Shown one piece after another: positions 2,013-25,677 of a stretch of DNA of 26,729 bases. The stretch is taken from positions 1 to 26,729 of IMG/VR virus record IMGVR_UViG_3300005607_000052. One strand, given 5' to 3'. A program made the translations under genes and the position numbers. Each line of letters opens with the position of its first letter. Position 1 is the stretch's first letter. Source of the stretch: a virus. Below the pieces are notes generated by a model that saw only the letters and a list, made by a program, of their open reading frames with translations, was not told where the DNA came from and searched no databases.

Positions 2013-2246
2013 TCACTTCCGATGAGGCTTGTTCTTCTTTCTACCGAGACGATCGGGATCCATGCCGAGAGGTGCCGTGTATCCTGCGATACCACCGCCG
2101 CCAACCGCTGAAAACTCGTCCATCTCCTCAGTCGCCTCTTCCGTCGAGCCTTCTTGACTTCCGTCCGACACGAGCTGGTTTGGAACCCTTGCCAGGTGAC
2201 CTTCGACCACTTCCCTAATGTAACGCATGAGCAGTTTCGTGCCCAT
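2013..2246 (-). CDS. Small protein with IRE-type N-terminal tag (77 aa)
   Basis: The function is unknown. The N-terminus contains L-M-R-Y-I-R-E (residues 6-12), the same tag seen on the 56-, 158- and 185-aa proteins of this window. A Glu-rich middle and a VGGGG stretch follow, ending in a basic tail (GRKKNKPHRK). The ATG at 2246 has no Shine-Dalgarno; instead CTATTTAG ends 3 nt before it, so the message may be leaderless. The gene sits between the Cys-rich gene and the gp32-like gene and is followed at once by a strong hairpin. If the tag is cleaved after Ile-Arg-Glu as in T4 internal proteins, the mature product would be about 65 aa. A start at Met7 is also possible. Confidence 0.65.
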   Translation of the reverse strand: MGTKLLMRYIREVVEGHLARVPNQLVSDGSQEGSTEEATEEMDEFSAVGGGGIAGYTAPLGMDPDRLGRKKNKPHRK

Positions 2247-17181: not shown

Positions 17182-17460
17182 TCACCAGCGTGCTTTTGCA
17201 GGGGATGGATCGTCGATGAGTCGCCAGATGTTGGCGTCCTCACGAATCCCCTGCTTCTTCTTCTCTTCAACGGTGAGCGGGTGAACGATGCCCCTGTCCT
17301 GCATCGTCTCGAGCATCTGCTGCGTCCGCTCAAGAGACCACCCCACGAACAGTGAGATGGTCCCGACATAGACGGGGCAGGCAACCCTATGCATGTAGCC
17401 CTCGATTATTCCGAGAACAACCTGTGGGGGCAAGCGACTGTCTCGAAGCAATGAGCCCAT
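17182..17460 (-). CDS. Small winged-helix-like protein (92 aa)
   Basis: No named family was recognised. Residues about 28-65 (YVGTISLFVGWSLERTQQML, then ETMQDRGIVHPLT) have the spacing of a helix-turn-helix plus wing, with a turn at VGWS and a long recognition-type helix. The tail is basic and polar. The start is ATG 17460, preceded by GGGGG 7 nt upstream and lying 15 nt after the stop of the 185-aa gene, so the two are co-transcribed. Its pairing with a second winged-helix-like gene suggests DNA binding or a structural use of the same fold in virion assembly. The fold call is by pattern only. Confidence 0.6.
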   Translation of the reverse strand: MGSLLRDSRLPPQVVLGIIEGYMHRVACPVYVGTISLFVGWSLERTQQMLETMQDRGIVHPLTVEEKKKQGIREDANIWRLIDDPSPAKARW

Positions 17461-17475
17461 GGTTGAACCCCCGCA

Positions 17476-18033
17476 TCAATCGCTGTCTTCGAAACGACGC
17501 TCGTCAGGAACGCGGTTGCGCTTCCACTTCTCCCACGTGGTCTCGGGCGCGATGTTACCCACCGCGTCAGGGTTCTCTTCCAACCAGGCCGCCGTCTCTT
17601 TGGCGAACTGCTCACCCTTCTCAGTCAATGCGTAGAGCAGCGTATTTCCCTTCTTCCCGACGGTCTTGACCAATCCCCTGATCAAGACGCCGCTGCGGCG
17701 CGCACCACCTGCATCGTTTGGGACGTCTCTCACGCCCAAGCTGACTGCGCGACCAGTGTCGGGCTCGAAGACGATCTGACCGTTCTCGTCACGTTGCCAC
17801 TCGTTCCGCTTCACCGTCGCGGGTGCCCAGTACGAGTTGTTGGTACGGGTCTGGAACTTCTCGGGCGCCTTGCCCTCGATCGCGTGCACTTGACGCATGA
17901 TCTCATAGCGGCTGGTGGGCTTGCCTGCCTGCGCCAGCACATAGCAGATCAGGTGTGCCTTGTCACCCGGCCAACCACGGTCGCCGATCGCTTCGTGAAT
18001 CAACTGCCGCAGCTCTCGGACCGTCAGTTCCAT
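17476..18033 (-). CDS. Tagged winged-helix-like protein (185 aa)
   Basis: The N-terminus MELTVRELRQLIHEA carries the tag shared with three other proteins here. The body looks like a split winged helix: AHLICYVLAQAGKPTSRYEI (helices), then a long insert, then SGVLIRGLVKTVGKKGNTLL with YALTEKGEQFA as the wing. The frame is open to 18066, but ATG 18033 is preferred: it puts the tag at residue 1 and follows GATACTTAG by 4 nt. No Shine-Dalgarno is present. If the tag is a capsid-targeting signal, this would be a DNA-binding protein packaged with the genome; alternatively it could regulate late genes. Function unknown. Confidence 0.7.
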   Translation of the reverse strand: MELTVRELRQLIHEAIGDRGWPGDKAHLICYVLAQAGKPTSRYEIMRQVHAIEGKAPEKFQTRTNNSYWAPATVKRNEWQRDENGQIVFEPDTGRAVSLGVRDVPNDAGGARRSGVLIRGLVKTVGKKGNTLLYALTEKGEQFAKETAAWLEENPDAVGNIAPETTWEKWKRNRVPDERRFEDSD

Positions 18034-18037
18034 GGCT

Positions 18038-18045
18038 CTAAGTAT
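18038..18045 (-). promoter_or_regulatory. Promoter-like motif ATACTTAG, 4 nt before an ATG
   Basis: Gene sense is GGGATACTTAG-AGCC-ATG. The 9-mer GATACTTAG recurs exactly 20 nt before the second sheath gene. The motif supports ATG 18033 as the start and implies a leaderless transcript. Confidence 0.5.
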
Positions 18046-18063
18046 CCCGTAAGGTTGAGACGA

Positions 18064-18100
18064 CAATCCCCGGACATCGTATTACACGAGCCGGGGATTG
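18064..18100 (-). terminator. Stem-loop between tube gene and tagged winged-helix gene
   Basis: CAATCCCCGG (18064-18073) pairs perfectly with CCGGGGATTG (18091-18100) around a 17-nt loop. It lies just upstream of the promoter-like motif at 18038-18045. There is no U-tract in the transcription direction, so it may be a weak or factor-dependent terminator or an RNA-processing site. Confidence 0.4.
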
Positions 18101-18151
18101 AAGGCGAGAACACCAACGTCGCCGGTGACAGGAGAAGCGTTGGCGCCCGCA

Positions 18152-18169
18152 CCTGGCCGGAGTGCCAGG
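18152..18169 (-). terminator. Short hairpin directly after the tube gene stop
   Basis: CCTGGC (18152-18157) pairs with GCCAGG (18164-18169) around 6 nt, starting 1 nt after the tail-tube stop codon. With the larger stem at 18064-18100 it makes the 137-nt gap 18034-18170 a two-hairpin region. No U-run follows. It may protect the 3' end of the abundant tube mRNA. Confidence 0.35.
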
Positions 18170-18170
18170 A

Positions 18171-18659
18171 TCAGAACTGTAGGACTGCGTTGTCGAAGCG
18201 CAGGGTCAAGCTGATCTCGGCCAGCGTGCCGTCCTCGTAGGTGAGCTCACCGAAGTTCGCTTCCGTGATGAAAGCGCCCTTGATGTCCCAGAGCTCGACG
18301 ACGGTGCCGACGGGGTCCAGCAGCTTGAGCTGGATGTCGCGCTTGTAGAAGTCAGCGTAGCCGGCACGACCGGACACCGTCTCCAAGCACAGGCGGATCC
18401 ACTCCATGACCTGCTGAGCGCCCGAAGGGGCGATCGGGTCGTAGAGGGTCACTGCGAGCGTGTTGAACTTCGTCAGACCAGCAAGGTACCGACGGAAGTT
18501 GATGAACGGCACCTCGACCTCCTCCGTGGTCACGGTCGGGCGCGCCGTTGTCTTCATGATGTAGGCGTCGATGCCCTCGATCATGAGCACCCAGCGGTTC
18601 TTCCGCTTGGGCTCGAACTTGTTGGGCAGCATCGACGTTACGTCGAGAGTCTCAGCCAT
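18171..18659 (-). CDS. 19: Tail tube protein (T4 gp19-like)
   Basis: This is the inner tube subunit around which the sheath contracts, 162 aa and so about the same length as T4 gp19 (163 aa). The N-terminus (LPNKFEPKRKNRWVLMIEGI) and middle (LAVTLYDPIAPSGAQQVMEW) match the tube fold: a ligand-like beta structure with a central helix. The C-terminus (GELTYEDGTLAEISLTLRFD) ends in the strand expected to pair with neighbours in the ring. The start ATG 18659 has a good Shine-Dalgarno (CAGGAGACTACA). It follows the sheath genes with only two small tagged genes between, the T4-type order 18-19. Confidence 0.9.
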   Translation of the reverse strand: MAETLDVTSMLPNKFEPKRKNRWVLMIEGIDAYIMKTTARPTVTTEEVEVPFINFRRYLAGLTKFNTLAVTLYDPIAPSGAQQVMEWIRLCLETVSGRAGYADFYKRDIQLKLLDPVGTVVELWDIKGAFITEANFGELTYEDGTLAEISLTLRFDNAVLQF

Positions 18660-18671
18660 TGTAGTCTCCTG

Positions 18672-18842
18672 TCACCGGGTTCGATCGTAACTATCAGCCC
18701 CACGCGCTTGCTGCCCTTTTGTGGGGGCGGCCTGAGGGCCCTCGAGAACGTTCTGTGTGCGGTTGAACAGCACCTTGAGAGCCTGAGCGTACTCGCGCTC
18801 CTCCCGGATCACACGCTTGAGGTCACCGAGGCGGATCTTCAC
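18672..18842 (-). CDS. Tagged 56-aa protein, GTG start overlapping the previous stop
   Basis: The GTG at 18842 overlaps the stop of the 158-aa gene as GTGA, and the frame runs to TGA 18674-18672, just before the tube Shine-Dalgarno. The protein starts MKIRLGDLKRVIREE, a textbook example of the N-terminal tag of this window, then EYAQALKVLFNRTQNVLEG and a polar tail (PTKGQQARGADSYDRTR). Coupling, codon use and the tag make the gene convincing despite its size. Cleavage after Ile-Arg-Glu would leave 42 residues. A promoter-like GATAGTTAC falls inside its 3' codons and is probably chance. Function unknown; it sits between sheath and tube genes. Confidence 0.75.
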   Translation of the reverse strand: MKIRLGDLKRVIREEREYAQALKVLFNRTQNVLEGPQAAPTKGQQARGADSYDRTR

Positions 18843-19315
18843 CGCTTCACCGCTTCCTTGGCTTTGGTCGCGAACTCGATGACCTTGTCGAGCCAGGGCA
18901 GGGCTTCTTTGACGCCCACGTCGTTGATCCGGTCAGCAGCATCACGCATCATGTTGATGTTGGCCTTGAACCGACGCAGCTGCTCGTGGGGAGGCAGCTT
19001 GTTCCCGGCGCTCTTGGGCAGCGGCGGCGGGCCCTTCTTCGGCTCGTCCCAGGGAGACGGTCCGGCGCCCTTCCGCTTGCTCATCGTCATGCCGGGGCTG
19101 TAGTCGCCCAGCTCTTCGTTCAGGCCCTGCCGCTCTGCCAGCGCATCCTCGTACTCTTCGTCGATGACACGTTGGAGCGCTTCCATCGTCACGATCGGGC
19201 CGCTGATGTTCAGCGGCTCGTCAGACGCAGTCGATTCATCGAGGGGGCCGAGGTCCAGCTTGCGGCGGACAGCCTCGCGGATGATGCTGCGAAGTTGGTT
19301 CTTCGTCACCTTCAT
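18839..19315 (-). CDS. Tagged protein after the sheath genes (158 aa)
   Basis: The N-terminus MKVTKNQLRSIIREA is the clearest example of the shared tag, followed by a basic VRRKLD. The body has an acidic helical part (LQRVIDEEYEDALAERQG), a Pro/Lys-rich linker (PWDEPKKGPPPLPKSAG) and a C-terminal helical part (FKANINMMRDAADRIN). No family was recognised. ATG 19315 lies 20 nt after the second sheath stop, with AGGG upstream, so it is in the sheath operon, and its stop is coupled to the 56-aa gene. The tag suggests packaging, proteolytic maturation or docking to a common partner; a neck or tail-assembly accessory role is equally possible. Confidence 0.75.
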   Translation of the reverse strand: MKVTKNQLRSIIREAVRRKLDLGPLDESTASDEPLNISGPIVTMEALQRVIDEEYEDALAERQGLNEELGDYSPGMTMSKRKGAGPSPWDEPKKGPPPLPKSAGNKLPPHEQLRRFKANINMMRDAADRINDVGVKEALPWLDKVIEFATKAKEAVKR

Positions 19316-19335: not shown

Positions 19336-22300
19336 TCACTGCTGCGAGATGTTGTTCGTCACGACGAAGTCGAGGGAGACGTACTCGATCGACTTGGTCG
19401 GCTGGACGAAGATCTTGCCGCGGATGGTGTTGTTCTCGATGTCGAGCTGCGTCGTCGTCGAAGAGTCGATGACGACCTTGAAGCGCTGGAGACCAGCCTG
19501 TGCCTGGATCTTCTGGAGGACGGGGGTGACCGCCGCCGAGAAGCGAGCCAACGTGGCATCGCGGTTCTGCTCGAACAGGATGGTGTTGGCGATGTCGCGG
19601 ACCTGGCGGCGGATCTCGATCAGGAGGCGCCGCACGTTGACGCGGTCCAGGGCCGATGCAGCCTGTTGCAGCGTCTTCTGTCCCCAGACCACCACGCCGC
19701 CCTTCGGGTTGGTGCCGCCCGAGGCATTGCCCGGGAAGGCGACCAACGGGTTGATGTTGGCGTCGTAGAGGGCGTCCATGTTCGGCTTGGACAGCTTGAC
19801 ACGGGCCTCGAGAGCCGTCTGCAGGGAACCACGAGTGAAACCCGCGGGGGCAAACCAGGGGTGACCCACTGCGTCGTTCAGAGCGAGCGCTCCGAGGACG
19901 ACAACCGACGGCGGAGCGTACACGTTGCTCTTCGTGTTCGGGTCCGGCATCACGACGTCCGGGAAGTAGGCTGCGCCGAAGCTGCTGTTCACCGACCGCT
20001 CGAGGAAGTTCTCGATGGTGTAGGTGACGCTCGGCAGCTGCGAGTCTTCCTTGACCAGCTCGTCGTTGTTGTCGAACTGCTCGATGTCCATCAGGTACAT
20101 GCAGTCGAAGCGCTGCTCGCAGGCCGCGAGAGCTGCGTCAGTGACGACCGGGTGCCGGATGCCGGGGACCGCCAACAGCATGATGTCGACGTTGGTCGTG
20201 TCCGACATGATCTTGAGGGCCGCGTTGTAGGACGACACCGTCGAGCCGGCGTTGAAGCCACGGTTCGATGCGTTCATGTCGTCTTCGACCGCGTTCGACG
20301 TCAGCTGGCGCTGGTCAGGATCGAACAGGTTGGTGCCGTCGAAGCCGCCCTGGAGCAGGAAGTTCCACTTCAGGAAGCGACGGTTGGCCTGCACGAAGTC
20401 GCTCGGCAGCAGCGACCGGGTCTTGGTCGTGTCGTTGGTTGGGATGTTGCCGTTGCGGACGTACTGCGCCTGCACCCACTGCGACGGGTCAGCGATGCCC
20501 GCCGAGTTGGTGACGACTTGGATGTTCATCAGGCTGAACAGGTTGAAGTTGAACCTGTCAGCGTCAATGATCGCACCCGCAACTGGCGCAGCACCCGGCT
20601 GGCCACCGTTGTCGTAGCCCACGCGGACGTTCTGCACGTCTGTGCGGAACTCGGGCAGGTACTTGGCGAAGGCCGTCAGCGTCTTGTTGGGCAGGGTGCT
20701 GAGGTTGGGCGTCGTCAAGCTGGTTGCATGCTCGAACTGCACGCCCCAGTAGAGGAGCGGGTTGACCTGCGTCTTGGCACCCGTCCCCTGCGTGATGTTG
20801 GTGCGGAGCGGGACCGGCGGCTCGGTGACGCCAGCGAAGATCTGGGCTTGCGAACCGGTGACCGCGAAGATGCCCTGCGAACCCGAAACCAGGCCCACCG
20901 GCGGCGTGGCGAGGGTGCCGGTGCCCGCCGTCACCAGGTGGTGGACGCCGCGGAGACCGACCGGAAGTGCCGTCGGATCGAGTTCGGCCGCGTCGACGGA
21001 TTCATCAACTTCGACGCGGATGTAGTTCGATGCGTTGGGGAAGTTGCCGTCGACGACCAGCTTCTGTGCCGTCGGGCCGCGGTCGAAGTCGAAGAATGCG
21101 TGTGCATCTCCGATGACCTTGGCGATGTACTGCGAGTCGCTCGGGTTCAGGCTCAGGCCGCGGAACTGCTCGAGGTAGACGGGCGCGGTGTCGTTGTCGC
21201 CCCACTGGCGAACGACGAGGTCGAAGGTTCCGTACTGGTTCGACGGGTCAGTCGACAGCGCCAGGTTCTCGATGCTGACCTTGTACAGCGTGCTGACGCC
21301 CGAGCCGTCGTCCAACGCGTGGAGGCGGAACAGGTTGTGAGGCTTGCCACCGAAGGGCTGCGACACGACCCACGGAGACACCGCGTGACCGAAGCGGTCG
21401 CGGAAGTCCTCATAGTCGGGGACCTGATCGCTGCCGGTGTCACGTGCCAGCGAGCTGGGGACGAGGAATGCCGAAGCTTCGACACCAGGGGTGTACGCCG
21501 TGGAAGCACCTGCACCGTAACGCGAGTTGACGATGCCGGAGCCAGTCGCTGCAGCGAGGGCCGGGTGAACGTCGTAGTTCAGGTAGAGGTAGTGGCCCGA
21601 CTCGTTGAGCAGGTCGGGGTCCGTGTTCAAGACGTTGGCGATGTAGTTCGGCGAGGTGACGTCGAACGAAGCCGTGATGACGTTCGGGAACAGCGGGTCG
21701 GTACCCTTGAGACCGTTCAGCAACAGGACGAAGTCCTGCTTGGCGATGGACCCGGCGAACAGAGTGAGGTCACCCAACTGCGCACCAGAGTCGCTGACAC
21801 CAGCAACGTGAGCCGACGTCGGAGCCAGGCTGGACGTTCCGGGTGCAGAGGCCGACAGCGTCGGGACGACACCAGACGCCGCCATGATCATGCCACGGAC
21901 GATCGGGACTGCCGGGCCACCCGAGTACTGGAGGCCTGCTGAGGAGAAGACGGTCGAACCCGCCGACTCTGACATGAAGCAGCCGAGGAAGTAGGCACGA
22001 CCCGGCACGCCGTTTGAGTTCGCGTACGGATTGGGGCTCAGTTCGCCGTCATTGTTCGGATCGGGCTCATCCTCACCCACAGTGAAGCCTGCACCCGCCA
22101 CGTCACCCGTGCCAGACACGCGCTTGGCGCCCTGGCCGACACCGAGGACCCTGACGTAGGTCAGAGCCTGTGCGTTGCGGAGCCACTCAGTCGCCGCCAG
22201 GGGACCGAACTTCTTGCCGTCGGTGTAACCGAACTTGCTGTAGAAATCGTTGACGAGGCCGACGGTGAGGGGCACGAAAGCCGGACCCTTCACAGAAGTG

Positions 22301-22404
22301 CCAACGACGCCTGCAGGCGTGCCGGTCGGCGTGACCGCCAACGGCTGCGAGAGATCGATCTCTGTCGCCGATACACCAGGTGCGCCGAACTTGAGCTGTG
22401 CCAT
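19336..22404 (-). CDS. 18: Tail sheath protein, second paralogue (1022 aa)
   Basis: This is a contractile sheath subunit of the T4 gp18 family, paralogous to the gene just upstream. The N-terminal block GTPAGVVGTSVKGPAFVPLT matches the equivalent block in the 1033-aa sheath. The C-terminal sheath core has WFAPAGF (about 848), WGQKTLQQAASALDRVNVRR (about 905-925) and the strand-rich end YVSLDFVVTNNISQQ that links neighbouring subunits. It is about 360 residues longer than T4 gp18 (659 aa), with the extra length in the middle, where surface domains are expected. The start ATG 22404 has AGAGG 9 nt upstream and a GATACTTAG promoter-like box further up. Confidence 0.9.
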   Translation of the reverse strand: MAQLKFGAPGVSATEIDLSQPLAVTPTGTPAGVVGTSVKGPAFVPLTVGLVNDFYSKFGYTDGKKFGPLAATEWLRNAQALTYVRVLGVGQGAKRVSGTGDVAGAGFTVGEDEPDPNNDGELSPNPYANSNGVPGRAYFLGCFMSESAGSTVFSSAGLQYSGGPAVPIVRGMIMAASGVVPTLSASAPGTSSLAPTSAHVAGVSDSGAQLGDLTLFAGSIAKQDFVLLLNGLKGTDPLFPNVITASFDVTSPNYIANVLNTDPDLLNESGHYLYLNYDVHPALAAATGSGIVNSRYGAGASTAYTPGVEASAFLVPSSLARDTGSDQVPDYEDFRDRFGHAVSPWVVSQPFGGKPHNLFRLHALDDGSGVSTLYKVSIENLALSTDPSNQYGTFDLVVRQWGDNDTAPVYLEQFRGLSLNPSDSQYIAKVIGDAHAFFDFDRGPTAQKLVVDGNFPNASNYIRVEVDESVDAAELDPTALPVGLRGVHHLVTAGTGTLATPPVGLVSGSQGIFAVTGSQAQIFAGVTEPPVPLRTNITQGTGAKTQVNPLLYWGVQFEHATSLTTPNLSTLPNKTLTAFAKYLPEFRTDVQNVRVGYDNGGQPGAAPVAGAIIDADRFNFNLFSLMNIQVVTNSAGIADPSQWVQAQYVRNGNIPTNDTTKTRSLLPSDFVQANRRFLKWNFLLQGGFDGTNLFDPDQRQLTSNAVEDDMNASNRGFNAGSTVSSYNAALKIMSDTTNVDIMLLAVPGIRHPVVTDAALAACEQRFDCMYLMDIEQFDNNDELVKEDSQLPSVTYTIENFLERSVNSSFGAAYFPDVVMPDPNTKSNVYAPPSVVVLGALALNDAVGHPWFAPAGFTRGSLQTALEARVKLSKPNMDALYDANINPLVAFPGNASGGTNPKGGVVVWGQKTLQQAASALDRVNVRRLLIEIRRQVRDIANTILFEQNRDATLARFSAAVTPVLQKIQAQAGLQRFKVVIDSSTTTQLDIENNTIRGKIFVQPTKSIEYVSLDFVVTNNISQQ

Positions 22405-22423
22405 TGACTATTGCCTCTGCGCT

Positions 22424-22575: not shown

Positions 22576-25500
22576 TCAGACGAACTGGACGCCGCTGTTG
22601 GTGATGATGAAGTCGATGGCGATGAACTCGACCACGCGGGTCGGGACCACCACGATGCGACCGTTCATCCGGTACTGGTCGACGTCAGCCTGGCTGTTGT
22701 TCGTCGAGTTGCAGATGACCTGGAAGGCCTCGATGCCCGCCGCGGTCTGGATGAGGCCCAGTTGCAGCACCGCCTGCGCGGTGAACTTGTTCTGGGTGTC
22801 GGGCGTGTTCTGCTCGAACTCCAGCTGCAGAGCGATGTTGCTGATGATGCGCTTGACCTCCAGCAACAGGCGGCGGACGTTGACCCGGTCGAGAGCCGAC
22901 GACTTCTGTTGCAGGGTCTTCTGTCCGAAGATGACGAAGCCCAGCCGCGGGAAGGTCGCGATCGGGTTGATGCGGCTGGTGTACAGCGTGTCGCGGTCGC
23001 TCGAGTTGAGGCGGACCGCCACGTTGGTGACGAAGTCCAGCGCTGCCCGGTTGAAGCCTGCCGGCGCGAACCAGGGGTAGCCGATCTTGTCGTTGAAGCC
23101 GAGAGCACCCATTGCTGCGATCGATGCCGGCACCTTGACGCGCCGATTGTTGACCGTGTCCTGGACGAAGACGTCCGGGAAGTAGGTGCCCATGTAGTTG
23201 TTGTCGATGGCGCGGGTGTTGAGGCCCACCGCCGTCTGCTCCACGTCGGGGCGTGCCGTCGAGTCGTCGAAGAGACGAAGGCCGTCCTCATCGTAGTTCT
23301 CGAGGTCCATGACGTAGTAGGCCAGGCCGTAGGACTTGACCTGCTGGCCGGCGTAGTCCGTCAGGAACGGCTCGCGGATGCCCGGCATGCAGAGGATGTT
23401 GTGGTTGACCTGCATCGGGTCCGTCATCACGTTGATGGCGGTGACGTAGGACGCCACGTTCGAGTTGCTCTGGCCGGTGCCGTTCTGGTTGGCTGCGAAG
23501 CCGGAGGGGATGAAGCCTGGGAAGGCTCCACCGGTTCCGTAGCTGCTCTCGTCGAAAGAGGTCGACTTGTCGTTCAACCGGCGAGCGTCCGGGTCCAGGA
23601 TGTTGACGCCGTCCCAGCCGCCGGCCAGGAACGTCGAGAACTTCAGGTACGAAGCGAAGCGGTTGAACTGCTGCGCGGTGCCCTTGGCCAGCAACGTGGC
23701 GAAGGTGATGCGGTTGGTGTTCAGCGCCGGATCGTAGTAGGTGTACGTGGCACCGTCCACCTTGCCGTTGCGGACGTAGGCCGCCTCACGCATCGTGCTG
23801 TCGACAGATGCGGTCAAGCCCTGCGCCAAGAAGGTGTTCAGGTCGGTGAGGAAGGCCACCTTGGCCAGTGTGAACTTGTTGTCGTTGAACTGGTCAGCAC
23901 CCGCACCCGTGACGTAGGTGTCGAGGTCGCAGCCCAGGAACTTGGTGTACGAGGCCAGCAGCTCGTTGGGCAGCGTCTCGACGTTCGGGTTGAGCGGGAT
24001 GTCGAGGCGCTCGAACTGCACGCCCCAGTACAGCGGCGGGTAAGCGATCTCGGTCGCACCCGGCTCGCCGAACCAGACGCCCGGCGACGGGCGGTTGCCC
24101 TTGGTTACCTTGGTCCGGAGGGGCACCGGCGGCAGGATCGAACCCGTCAGAGAAACGAAGCTGCCGGTGACGTTGCCCGTCAGGCGGGGCAGATTCGCGG
24201 CCTGGACCGCGCTGTCGGTGAGGCTGTCATTCGTCTTCAGCAGCTTAGCGCCGCGGAAGCCGAAGGGCAGCGCCGTTGCCGGCACCGTCTGGTTGTTGAC
24301 CTGGTCGCTCGGGATGACCCGGATGTACGCCGACTGGTTCGCGTACTTGCCGGTCGCCACGACGCGGCGCTCGGTGTCGATCGTCGCATCGAAGTTGTAG
24401 TAGACCTTGCGATCACCGATGACGGCGCCGATGAAGTTCTCAGCCGTCGGGTCGAGGCTCAGGTTGTTGAACTGCTCGAGGATGTTCGGGTTGATGTCGG
24501 TGTCGTCCCAGCTGCGGACCTGCAGCGAGAAGGTGCCGTACTTGTAGTTGTCAGTCGTCGACGCTTGGAGGTTGACGATGCTGATCTTGTAGAGGTTGTT
24601 GGCGTAAGCGCCGTCATCCAGTGCCTCGACGTGGAAGAGGTCGTACTCGACCTTGCCGAAGGGCTGGCTGATGAAGCTCGTCGTCCGGGGCGTCTGGTAT
24701 CGGGCGTCGTAGGCGCCGAAGCTGGCCCGGTACGACGTGTTGTCGTTGTACGGAGCGCTGGTGTAGACGTCCGGGTTGTTGCCGCTGGTGTTGGCCGAGC
24801 CCGACAGGACTGCTGCAGCTGTCGCCGTCGCCATCTGATCGTCGACCGCGAAGTCAGCGTAGAGAACGTGCTGCGCCGAGACGAAGTTGTCCGGGTTGCC
24901 GTTCAACAGCTTGGCGAAGTAGTTCTTGTCGTCCGGGTCGAAGGACGCCGTGAGGATGTGCAGGCCCGCGTGGCCATCGTCGTTGTAGAAGTTGGCACCC
25001 AGCGAGCTGGAGATGACCAGCTTGAAGTAGCCGCTCGGGCTGGTGCTCGTGCCGCCGACCATCTGGCCCATGTCGGCCATTGTGTCGATCTGCGGGCCGG
25101 TGACCTGGGTGAAGTCGAAGTTGCCATCGGCCACCATCAGGCGGGCCGTCGAGGGCATCATCACCATGCCGCGGACCAGGTGGGCAACGCCGCCCGAGAA
25201 GCTGTCGTTGTCGGTGAAAACTGCGGTACCGAATGCCTCATCCGGTTGCACCGTGTGCTGGGCGACCAGGAACTGCACCGTGCCGTTGACGATGCCGGGC
25301 TTGTTCGGCTGGCCCACTGCGTTGCCGTCGAGGTGGAAGCCTGCGTTGACGGTCCTGTTGGTGTCCAGGGTGCGGTTGATGTCGGTCCCAGTCGAGTTGG
25401 CACCCGCACCGAGGACACGCATGAACGTCAGAGCCTGACGGTTCGCGAGGAAGTAGAAGGCCGCGTACGGGCCGAACCGGTTTGGGTCCAGGGTTCCGAA

Positions 25501-25677
25501 GACAGCGTTGAATTGGTCGAAGTTGCCGACAGTGACGGGCACGAAGGCCGGGCCACGGTTGGACGTCCCGATCACACCGGCGGGGACACCGACCGGCCCT
25601 TGCTGGGCGGGGGCGGAGAGATCGATCTCCCGCTGGTAGAAGTTGGGGGACAGAAAGGTCTGCAGCTGCTGCGGCAT
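22576..25677 (-). CDS. 18: Tail sheath protein, first paralogue (1033 aa)
   Basis: This is a contractile sheath subunit of the gp18 family. The N-terminus (LSPNFYQREIDLS) resembles the start of other sheaths. The conserved block GVPAGVIGTSNRGPAFVPVT and the C-terminal core (WFAPAGF about 866; FGQKTLQQKSSALDRVNVRR about 912-935; FIAIDFIITNSG at the end) are shared with the downstream paralogue. The middle, around residues 100-600, is more divergent and probably forms the outer domains. The start ATG 25677 has AGAGGAG 8-9 nt upstream. It has its own promoter-like motif, leader hairpin and rho-independent terminator, so it is likely a separate, highly expressed late transcript. Confidence 0.92.
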   Translation of the reverse strand: MPQQLQTFLSPNFYQREIDLSAPAQQGPVGVPAGVIGTSNRGPAFVPVTVGNFDQFNAVFGTLDPNRFGPYAAFYFLANRQALTFMRVLGAGANSTGTDINRTLDTNRTVNAGFHLDGNAVGQPNKPGIVNGTVQFLVAQHTVQPDEAFGTAVFTDNDSFSGGVAHLVRGMVMMPSTARLMVADGNFDFTQVTGPQIDTMADMGQMVGGTSTSPSGYFKLVISSSLGANFYNDDGHAGLHILTASFDPDDKNYFAKLLNGNPDNFVSAQHVLYADFAVDDQMATATAAAVLSGSANTSGNNPDVYTSAPYNDNTSYRASFGAYDARYQTPRTTSFISQPFGKVEYDLFHVEALDDGAYANNLYKISIVNLQASTTDNYKYGTFSLQVRSWDDTDINPNILEQFNNLSLDPTAENFIGAVIGDRKVYYNFDATIDTERRVVATGKYANQSAYIRVIPSDQVNNQTVPATALPFGFRGAKLLKTNDSLTDSAVQAANLPRLTGNVTGSFVSLTGSILPPVPLRTKVTKGNRPSPGVWFGEPGATEIAYPPLYWGVQFERLDIPLNPNVETLPNELLASYTKFLGCDLDTYVTGAGADQFNDNKFTLAKVAFLTDLNTFLAQGLTASVDSTMREAAYVRNGKVDGATYTYYDPALNTNRITFATLLAKGTAQQFNRFASYLKFSTFLAGGWDGVNILDPDARRLNDKSTSFDESSYGTGGAFPGFIPSGFAANQNGTGQSNSNVASYVTAINVMTDPMQVNHNILCMPGIREPFLTDYAGQQVKSYGLAYYVMDLENYDEDGLRLFDDSTARPDVEQTAVGLNTRAIDNNYMGTYFPDVFVQDTVNNRRVKVPASIAAMGALGFNDKIGYPWFAPAGFNRAALDFVTNVAVRLNSSDRDTLYTSRINPIATFPRLGFVIFGQKTLQQKSSALDRVNVRRLLLEVKRIISNIALQLEFEQNTPDTQNKFTAQAVLQLGLIQTAAGIEAFQVICNSTNNSQADVDQYRMNGRIVVVPTRVVEFIAIDFIITNSGVQFV

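Follow-up and report, generated by a model that had tools for sequence, protein, structure and literature searches.

As a rule, virion proteomics of cultured phages is the only way to learn which proteins a phage delivers into its host together with its DNA. In T4, the internal proteins and Alt carry a capsid-targeting sequence (CTS) at their N-terminus; the gp21 protease cuts after [L/I]-x-E, and the packaged Alt is an ADP-ribosyltransferase (PMC9026906). Several cleavage sites inside one propeptide are known for T4 as well as for giant phages (PMC5694885). Then, could a comparable signal be recognised in uncultured phages? N-terminal sequences are not mentioned in a study of an aquatic lineage that may be related (PMC12619734), and six tag strings looked for in a literature library did not occur there.

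The window, that is, the whole 26.7-kb stretch of DNA analysed here, is a virus fragment whose minus strand bears a myovirus tail module, comprising genes for the tail tube, the sheath and a T4-type baseplate protein. The first-pass annotation proposed that four minus-strand proteins with unrelated bodies begin with one common tag ending in I-[RH]-E, which would direct them into proheads and then be clipped. Relatives of the window were collected by means of the tail tube protein, which served as a syntenic marker, together with a degenerate DNA pattern, and a scoring matrix (PSSM) for the tag was trained only on proteins of other phages. This PSSM picked out three of the four proteins (starts at 19315, 18842 and 18033; scores in Table 1), and all other genes of the window scored -10.7 or lower. 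The window's proteins contain 8,181 internal windows, none of which reached 12; the best, 6.4, was the sole positive one and lies within the 158-aa protein. The codon-position GC of the three tagged genes agrees with coding. The fourth protein (77 aa, start 2246) has an N-terminus like LLREYIRELLxE, and its relative in L281 starts with MIMDSNFRDYVRLIIQEILSE. Consequently, the claim of a single tag stands for three proteins and fails for the fourth, which resembles another class, while an [IV]-x-E ending of the shared stretch is present in all four.

Table 1. Features of the window discussed in the text (all coordinates refer to the 26.7-kb stretch).
Feature	Coordinates	Strand	Basis or remark
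77-aa protein, class C-like N-terminus MGTKLLMRYIREVVE, not class A	2013..2246	-	class A score -11.4; L281 relative; class C consensus
185-aa tagged protein, MELTVRELRQLIHE followed by A	17476..18033	-	PSSM 18.9; adjoins tail tube gene
Tag-coding segment of 185-aa protein	17992..18033	-	sequence
Tail tube protein (T4 gp19-like), no tag	18171..18659	-	PHROG 4542, E 5e-28
56-aa tagged protein, MKIRLGDLKRVIRE followed by E, GTG start	18672..18842	-	PSSM 21.9
Tag-coding segment of 56-aa protein	18801..18842	-	sequence
158-aa class A tagged protein, MKVTKNQLRSIIRE followed by A	18839..19315	-	PSSM 35.4, out of sample; flanked by tail sheath and tail tube genes
Tag-like internal copy IVTMEALQRVIDEE in 158-aa protein	19154..19195	-	score 6.4, weaker than N-terminal tag
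Tag-coding segment of 158-aa protein, residues 1-14, ends I-R-E	19274..19315	-	sequence; tag consensus
Tail sheath protein, no tag, context	19336..22404	-	tblastn against annotated tail sheaths

Relatives of the 158-aa protein in L001, L006 and L488 retain a tag, and in the 158-aa protein a further L-D-E, followed by S, occurs at residues 25-27. The protein looks mosaic, with a faint internal second tag: its halves match two tagged proteins that are neighbours in the close relative L001, where LTKDQLQQVIDEE is found at the place matching the internal copy, and this internal segment may have been left behind when two tagged genes fused. The start of the 56-aa gene overlaps the stop of the preceding gene by 4 nt, and its product matches an L224 protein, MKIRLGDLKRIIRE, in the tag only, the body in L224 being different. 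For the 185-aa protein, orthologs in L004, L006 and L488 retain the tag, and an in-frame TTG is present upstream of the start given in Table 1, at 18066. Its predicted structure (mean pLDDT 48) is too poor for a fold search, and its earlier reading as a winged-helix, packaged DNA-binding protein is not established.

As for the neighbouring genes, two diverged tail-sheath-like genes lie side by side on the minus strand, namely the one listed in Table 1 and another at 22576-25677; with about 1,020-1,030 aa each, both far exceed T4 gp18 in length. In addition, a 92-aa protein without tag is encoded at 17182-17460 (minus strand). Many related proteins are encoded close to the tail tube gene in other phages, and it has no confident family.

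Among the relatives, the tag consensus is M-[KR]-[IL]-T-K-[RS]-Q-L-R-[RQK]-I-I-[KR]-E-[EA], and in 320 of the 376 distinct tagged N-termini the stretch from M to E is exactly 13 residues long. In nine larger records, the N-terminal tag (score of at least 12) is present on 127 of 2,225 genes, versus 11 of 370,699 internal windows, where a score of at least 18 occurs seven times. Starts of the LRxIIREE kind are indeed frequent in environmental myoviruses, as the first-pass annotation supposed. The number of tagged genes per genome ranges from 3 to 41 among the relatives. The 202-kb G041 has 41 among its 294 genes (score of at least 8), many of which form a single tandem array; in G027 there are 25. 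The window's nearest large relative, G002, has only three, which places the window's clade at the low end of the tag counts. The bodies behind the tags are as dissimilar as first described: 433 tagged bodies were grouped into 288 families, and each of the 31 bodies compared in G041 forms a family of its own.

Since the motif is short, chance or the helix-rich composition of small proteins might be thought to produce it. However, the tag was found on none of 1,501 genes in 1.09 Mb of random viral DNA, the internal background is almost zero, and the spacing from M to E is exact in most of the N-termini. This reading, whose probability we take to be virtually nil, is therefore ruled out by the random-viral-DNA and internal-window controls. 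The pattern is also nearly absent from prokaryote sequence: in 257 Gb of prokaryote contigs, the tag DNA pattern was found in four contigs, all from metagenome-assembled genomes (MAGs), one of them with an S77 protease. Two MAG contigs look like phage contigs in bacterial bins. NHDW01000006.1 (G044:C5, L468-L483), of 306 kb and binned as Methylococcaceae, encodes an S77 protease and has 36 tagged genes, two of them of class C (see below), and PBIO01000025.1 (L460, L462), of 101 kb, belongs to a Halobacteriovorax MAG. When the tag together with the class B and C tags was searched by blast against 50,697 named phages, one weak match was obtained, in the uncultured 484-kb LR756508. The closest cultured relatives, Mel-JY01, immuto and RM378, showed no tags in the parts of their genomes scanned; Mel-JY01 and immuto are annotated with a prohead protease despite this. 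In Microcystis phage Mel-JY01 (L485), a protein annotated as ribosomal protein S21 is encoded in the head module at 22183-22410 of the record, flanked by the genes for the prohead protease and the capsid protein.

If the tag is a prohead signal, the phages that carry it would be expected to encode a gp21-type (S77) protease. Such a protease is present in all 15 tag-bearing records of at least 120 kb and in 17 of 23 over all sizes, the six without it being 64-83 kb pieces; it is also present in the three large records (at least 120 kb) newly recruited by the class C tag. Only one of 32 random viral records of at least 30 kb has it. The window itself gave no match to PF03420 (S77 protease), as expected for a fragment without head genes, and because these genes are missing, the case for packaging and cleavage of the window's own three proteins rests on the relatives. 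The nearest of the large ones, G002, contains both the S77 protease and a gp23 capsid protein with an L-K-E site. It should be noted that all tagged phages are of one T4-like ancestry, and the co-occurrence of tag and protease is therefore partly inherited and alone no proof. The analysis of the cleavage sites themselves does not depend on it.

A gp23-type capsid protein is present in all 30 records tested, and in each of the 27 aligned the gp23 propeptide ends in L-[RK]-E; the conserved capsid domain follows immediately, and the T4 site (LTE, followed by A) occupies the corresponding position. Moreover, the genes that come first after the protease, where those of the prohead core proteins are expected, encode proteins with an N-terminus of the tag kind in about 20 records, for example MAKISKSxLKxIVKECLVEILxE before G, and MAKISKSMLKGIVKECLVEILAE before G. 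Capsid and core-position proteins of the relatives thus share the cleavage motif with the tags. The N-terminus of gp23, MKxFTxxQLxxGI[RK], was also considered as a relative of the tag and was dropped, being weak when scored.

What kinds of proteins are tagged? Their median length is about 116 aa, and most of 150 representatives have no Pfam match. The matches obtained include AAA_33/polynucleotide-kinase-like proteins, the Zeta toxin fold, ART-PolyVal, RNase_T exonuclease, L,D-transpeptidase, HAD and metallopeptidase, and a second set of tagged proteins gave HD and weak GNAT-like matches. The ADP-ribosyltransferase-like proteins belong to the same enzyme class as the packaged Alt of T4. PADLOC yielded three matches on the 150 proteins, weak or generic, and the PHROG families shown for the tagged bodies include no tail, head or packaging family.

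These data also bear on the question of whether the tag addresses a partner in the infected cell rather than the virion, for example the replication complex or the host membrane. The location of the window's tagged genes within the tail module would be compatible with that, and we infer the packaging. Nevertheless, genes adjoining that of the protease, at the prohead core position, encode proteins with the same N-terminus, and the tagged bodies are accessory and effector-like and, among the PHROG families shown, not structural; hence we regard a non-virion partner as quite improbable.

The strongest claim of the original proposal concerns cleavage, and here the position of the candidate sites is informative. 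When proteins were selected on residues 2-11 alone, with the ending left free, 418 of 436 had [ILV]-x-E at residues 12-14. Of the 18 without this first site, 14 have a second [LIVM]-x-E just downstream. Such a second tripeptide is found 7 residues past the first E in 13% and 8 residues past it in 31% of the proteins, compared with a background of about 2%. The positional information over 288 unrelated families is high up to the first E, amounts to 0.2-0.4 bits up to position +8 and is about zero at +9; that is, the shared segment comprises 22 residues and ends at the second [LIVM]-x-E. The second site also has residue preferences of its own. Its P2 residue is Asn in 24%, against 4% in [LIVM]-x-E tripeptides deeper in the proteins (p = 2e-10). 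At P1', Ala, Gly or Ser accounts for 42%, against 24% (p = 4e-5). In contrast to the capsid sites, after which S, A or T mostly follows, the residue after the first site is mostly E. The first site may therefore be a helix feature that is not cut, and the second [LIVM]-x-E, 7-8 residues past residue 14, may be the final cut site. The clip point may thus be either the I-[RH]-E at residue 14 favoured in the first place or the second site.

The helix argument can be carried further, in that the tag might recruit its protein to the prohead or to another part of the virion and stay uncut, with the [LI]-x-E ending as a structural part of the binding helix. The tag residues are predicted to be helical (in a low-confidence model), and the E at residue 15, unlike the S, A or T usual after a capsid cut site, would fit such a role. 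Against this speak the end of the shared information at the second [LIVM]-x-E and P2 and P1' preferences that are absent from deeper tripeptides. Most proteins lacking the first site carry the second, and the three unrelated classes of tag described below keep [LIV]-x-E alone in common. We therefore consider an uncut tag unlikely.

Three classes of tag can be distinguished, namely class A (MKITKRQLRRIIKE), class B (MKKLLTEWRKFLKE) and class C (MNLLREYIRELLxE), and the terminal [LIV]-x-E is the only obvious feature common to them. For class C, selected on LLRxYIR alone, the site is present in 39 of 41 proteins. For class B, selected by a loose core pattern, it is present in 23 of 42, a noisy set, so that this class rests on fewer clear examples. 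Arrays of class B and C tags occur in L115, L134, L198, L288, L323, L501, L511, L513 and L514, and class C is often found beside class A in a genome. Seven body families were found under more than one tag class, and a homologous body often starts right after the E of the tag, as in ISE directly followed by ALELDIEEGDVILTGRFKNK (class A) and LNE directly followed by MKLDIKVGDVLLGGRFKNK (class B). Such swaps of tags on the same body are consistent with modularity.

Could the common N-terminus instead be an element of the DNA or RNA, such as a recombination handle or a translation enhancer, with the peptide incidental? In G041, identical tag residues use the same codon at a frequency of 0.54, versus 0.36 predicted from codon usage, and this moderate excess makes some exchange between copies at the DNA level likely. 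However, eleven identical class A tags of that genome, MKITKRQLRRIIKEE, are encoded by ten different DNA sequences, which means that the peptide is what is conserved, and the peptide pattern is kept both in the high-GC window and in phages of other codon usage. A nucleic acid element is thus a very improbable explanation.

Taken together, the tag is most probably a head-targeting propeptide like the CTS of T4, removed by the S77 protease and serving unusually large repertoires of cargo. The original reading as a capsid-targeting and protease signal held up in each test that was run. The sequence comparisons establish a common tag on unrelated bodies, its restriction to T4-like phages with an S77 protease, matching sites in capsid and core-position proteins, redundant [LI]-x-E sites and the exchange of tags on given bodies; from these we infer core binding, cleavage, packaging and ejection alike. 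The N-terminal segment of 14 to 22 residues would bind a component of the prohead core and thereby bring an otherwise unrelated protein into the prohead, where the S77 protease would cut after [IL]-[KR]-E (residue 14), after the second [LIVM]-x-E 7-8 residues on, or after both. The cargo would be freed within the head, be retained there, and then be ejected into the host along with the DNA. More tentatively, and with somewhat less than even confidence, it may be supposed that the loading has several channels: dozens of small effectors per virion would be taken up under the interchangeable tags A, B and C, which may each have a docking partner of their own in the prohead core, with bodies swapped under the tags and the tag marking an injected arsenal.

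If the tag does signal packaging, sequence would suffice to list what proteins many large uncultured phages deliver; one 202-kb genome yields 41 candidates and the 306-kb contig 36. Such lists would provide a large, testable set of probable anti-host and anti-defence proteins of the first minutes of infection, most of them without a known family, as well as new packaging tags with which T4-type capsids could be loaded.

Compared with known systems, the cargo has effector domains similar to those of the polyvalent proteins injected by phages, which carry ART, GNAT and other domains (PMC7824862), namely ART-PolyVal and a weak GNAT-like match. There, however, many domains are joined in one large protein, whereas here small separate proteins each have a tag of their own. 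The propeptides of SPN3US and phiKZ, processed by diverged gp21 homologues (PMC5694885), likewise target proteins to the head, are removed from ejected proteins and have multiple processing sites. Many of them exceed 100 residues, no single short tag is shared among them, and their proteases and motifs have diverged, while the segment shared here has 22 residues. The CTS of T4, on IPI, IPII, IPIII and Alt (PMC9026906, PMC3012670), is likewise a short N-terminal segment that ends in [L/I]-x-E and precedes divergent proteins; the phages concerned (here, the relatives of the window) encode a gp21-type S77 protease together with a gp23-type capsid protein, and the internal proteins of T4 too are diverse and variable between phages. 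In sequence, the present tag does not resemble the T4 segment MKTYQEFIAE, and ipI, ipII and ipIII of T4 score from -29 to -34 on the tag profile, with no homology to the T4 CTS detected. Thus, the tag would work like the T4 CTS, and its status as a homologue is not supported. Unlike the T4 segment, it is longer (14-22 residues), often has two candidate sites, exists in at least three parallel classes with tandem arrays of tagged genes, and marks up to 41 genes in one genome compared with a handful in T4.
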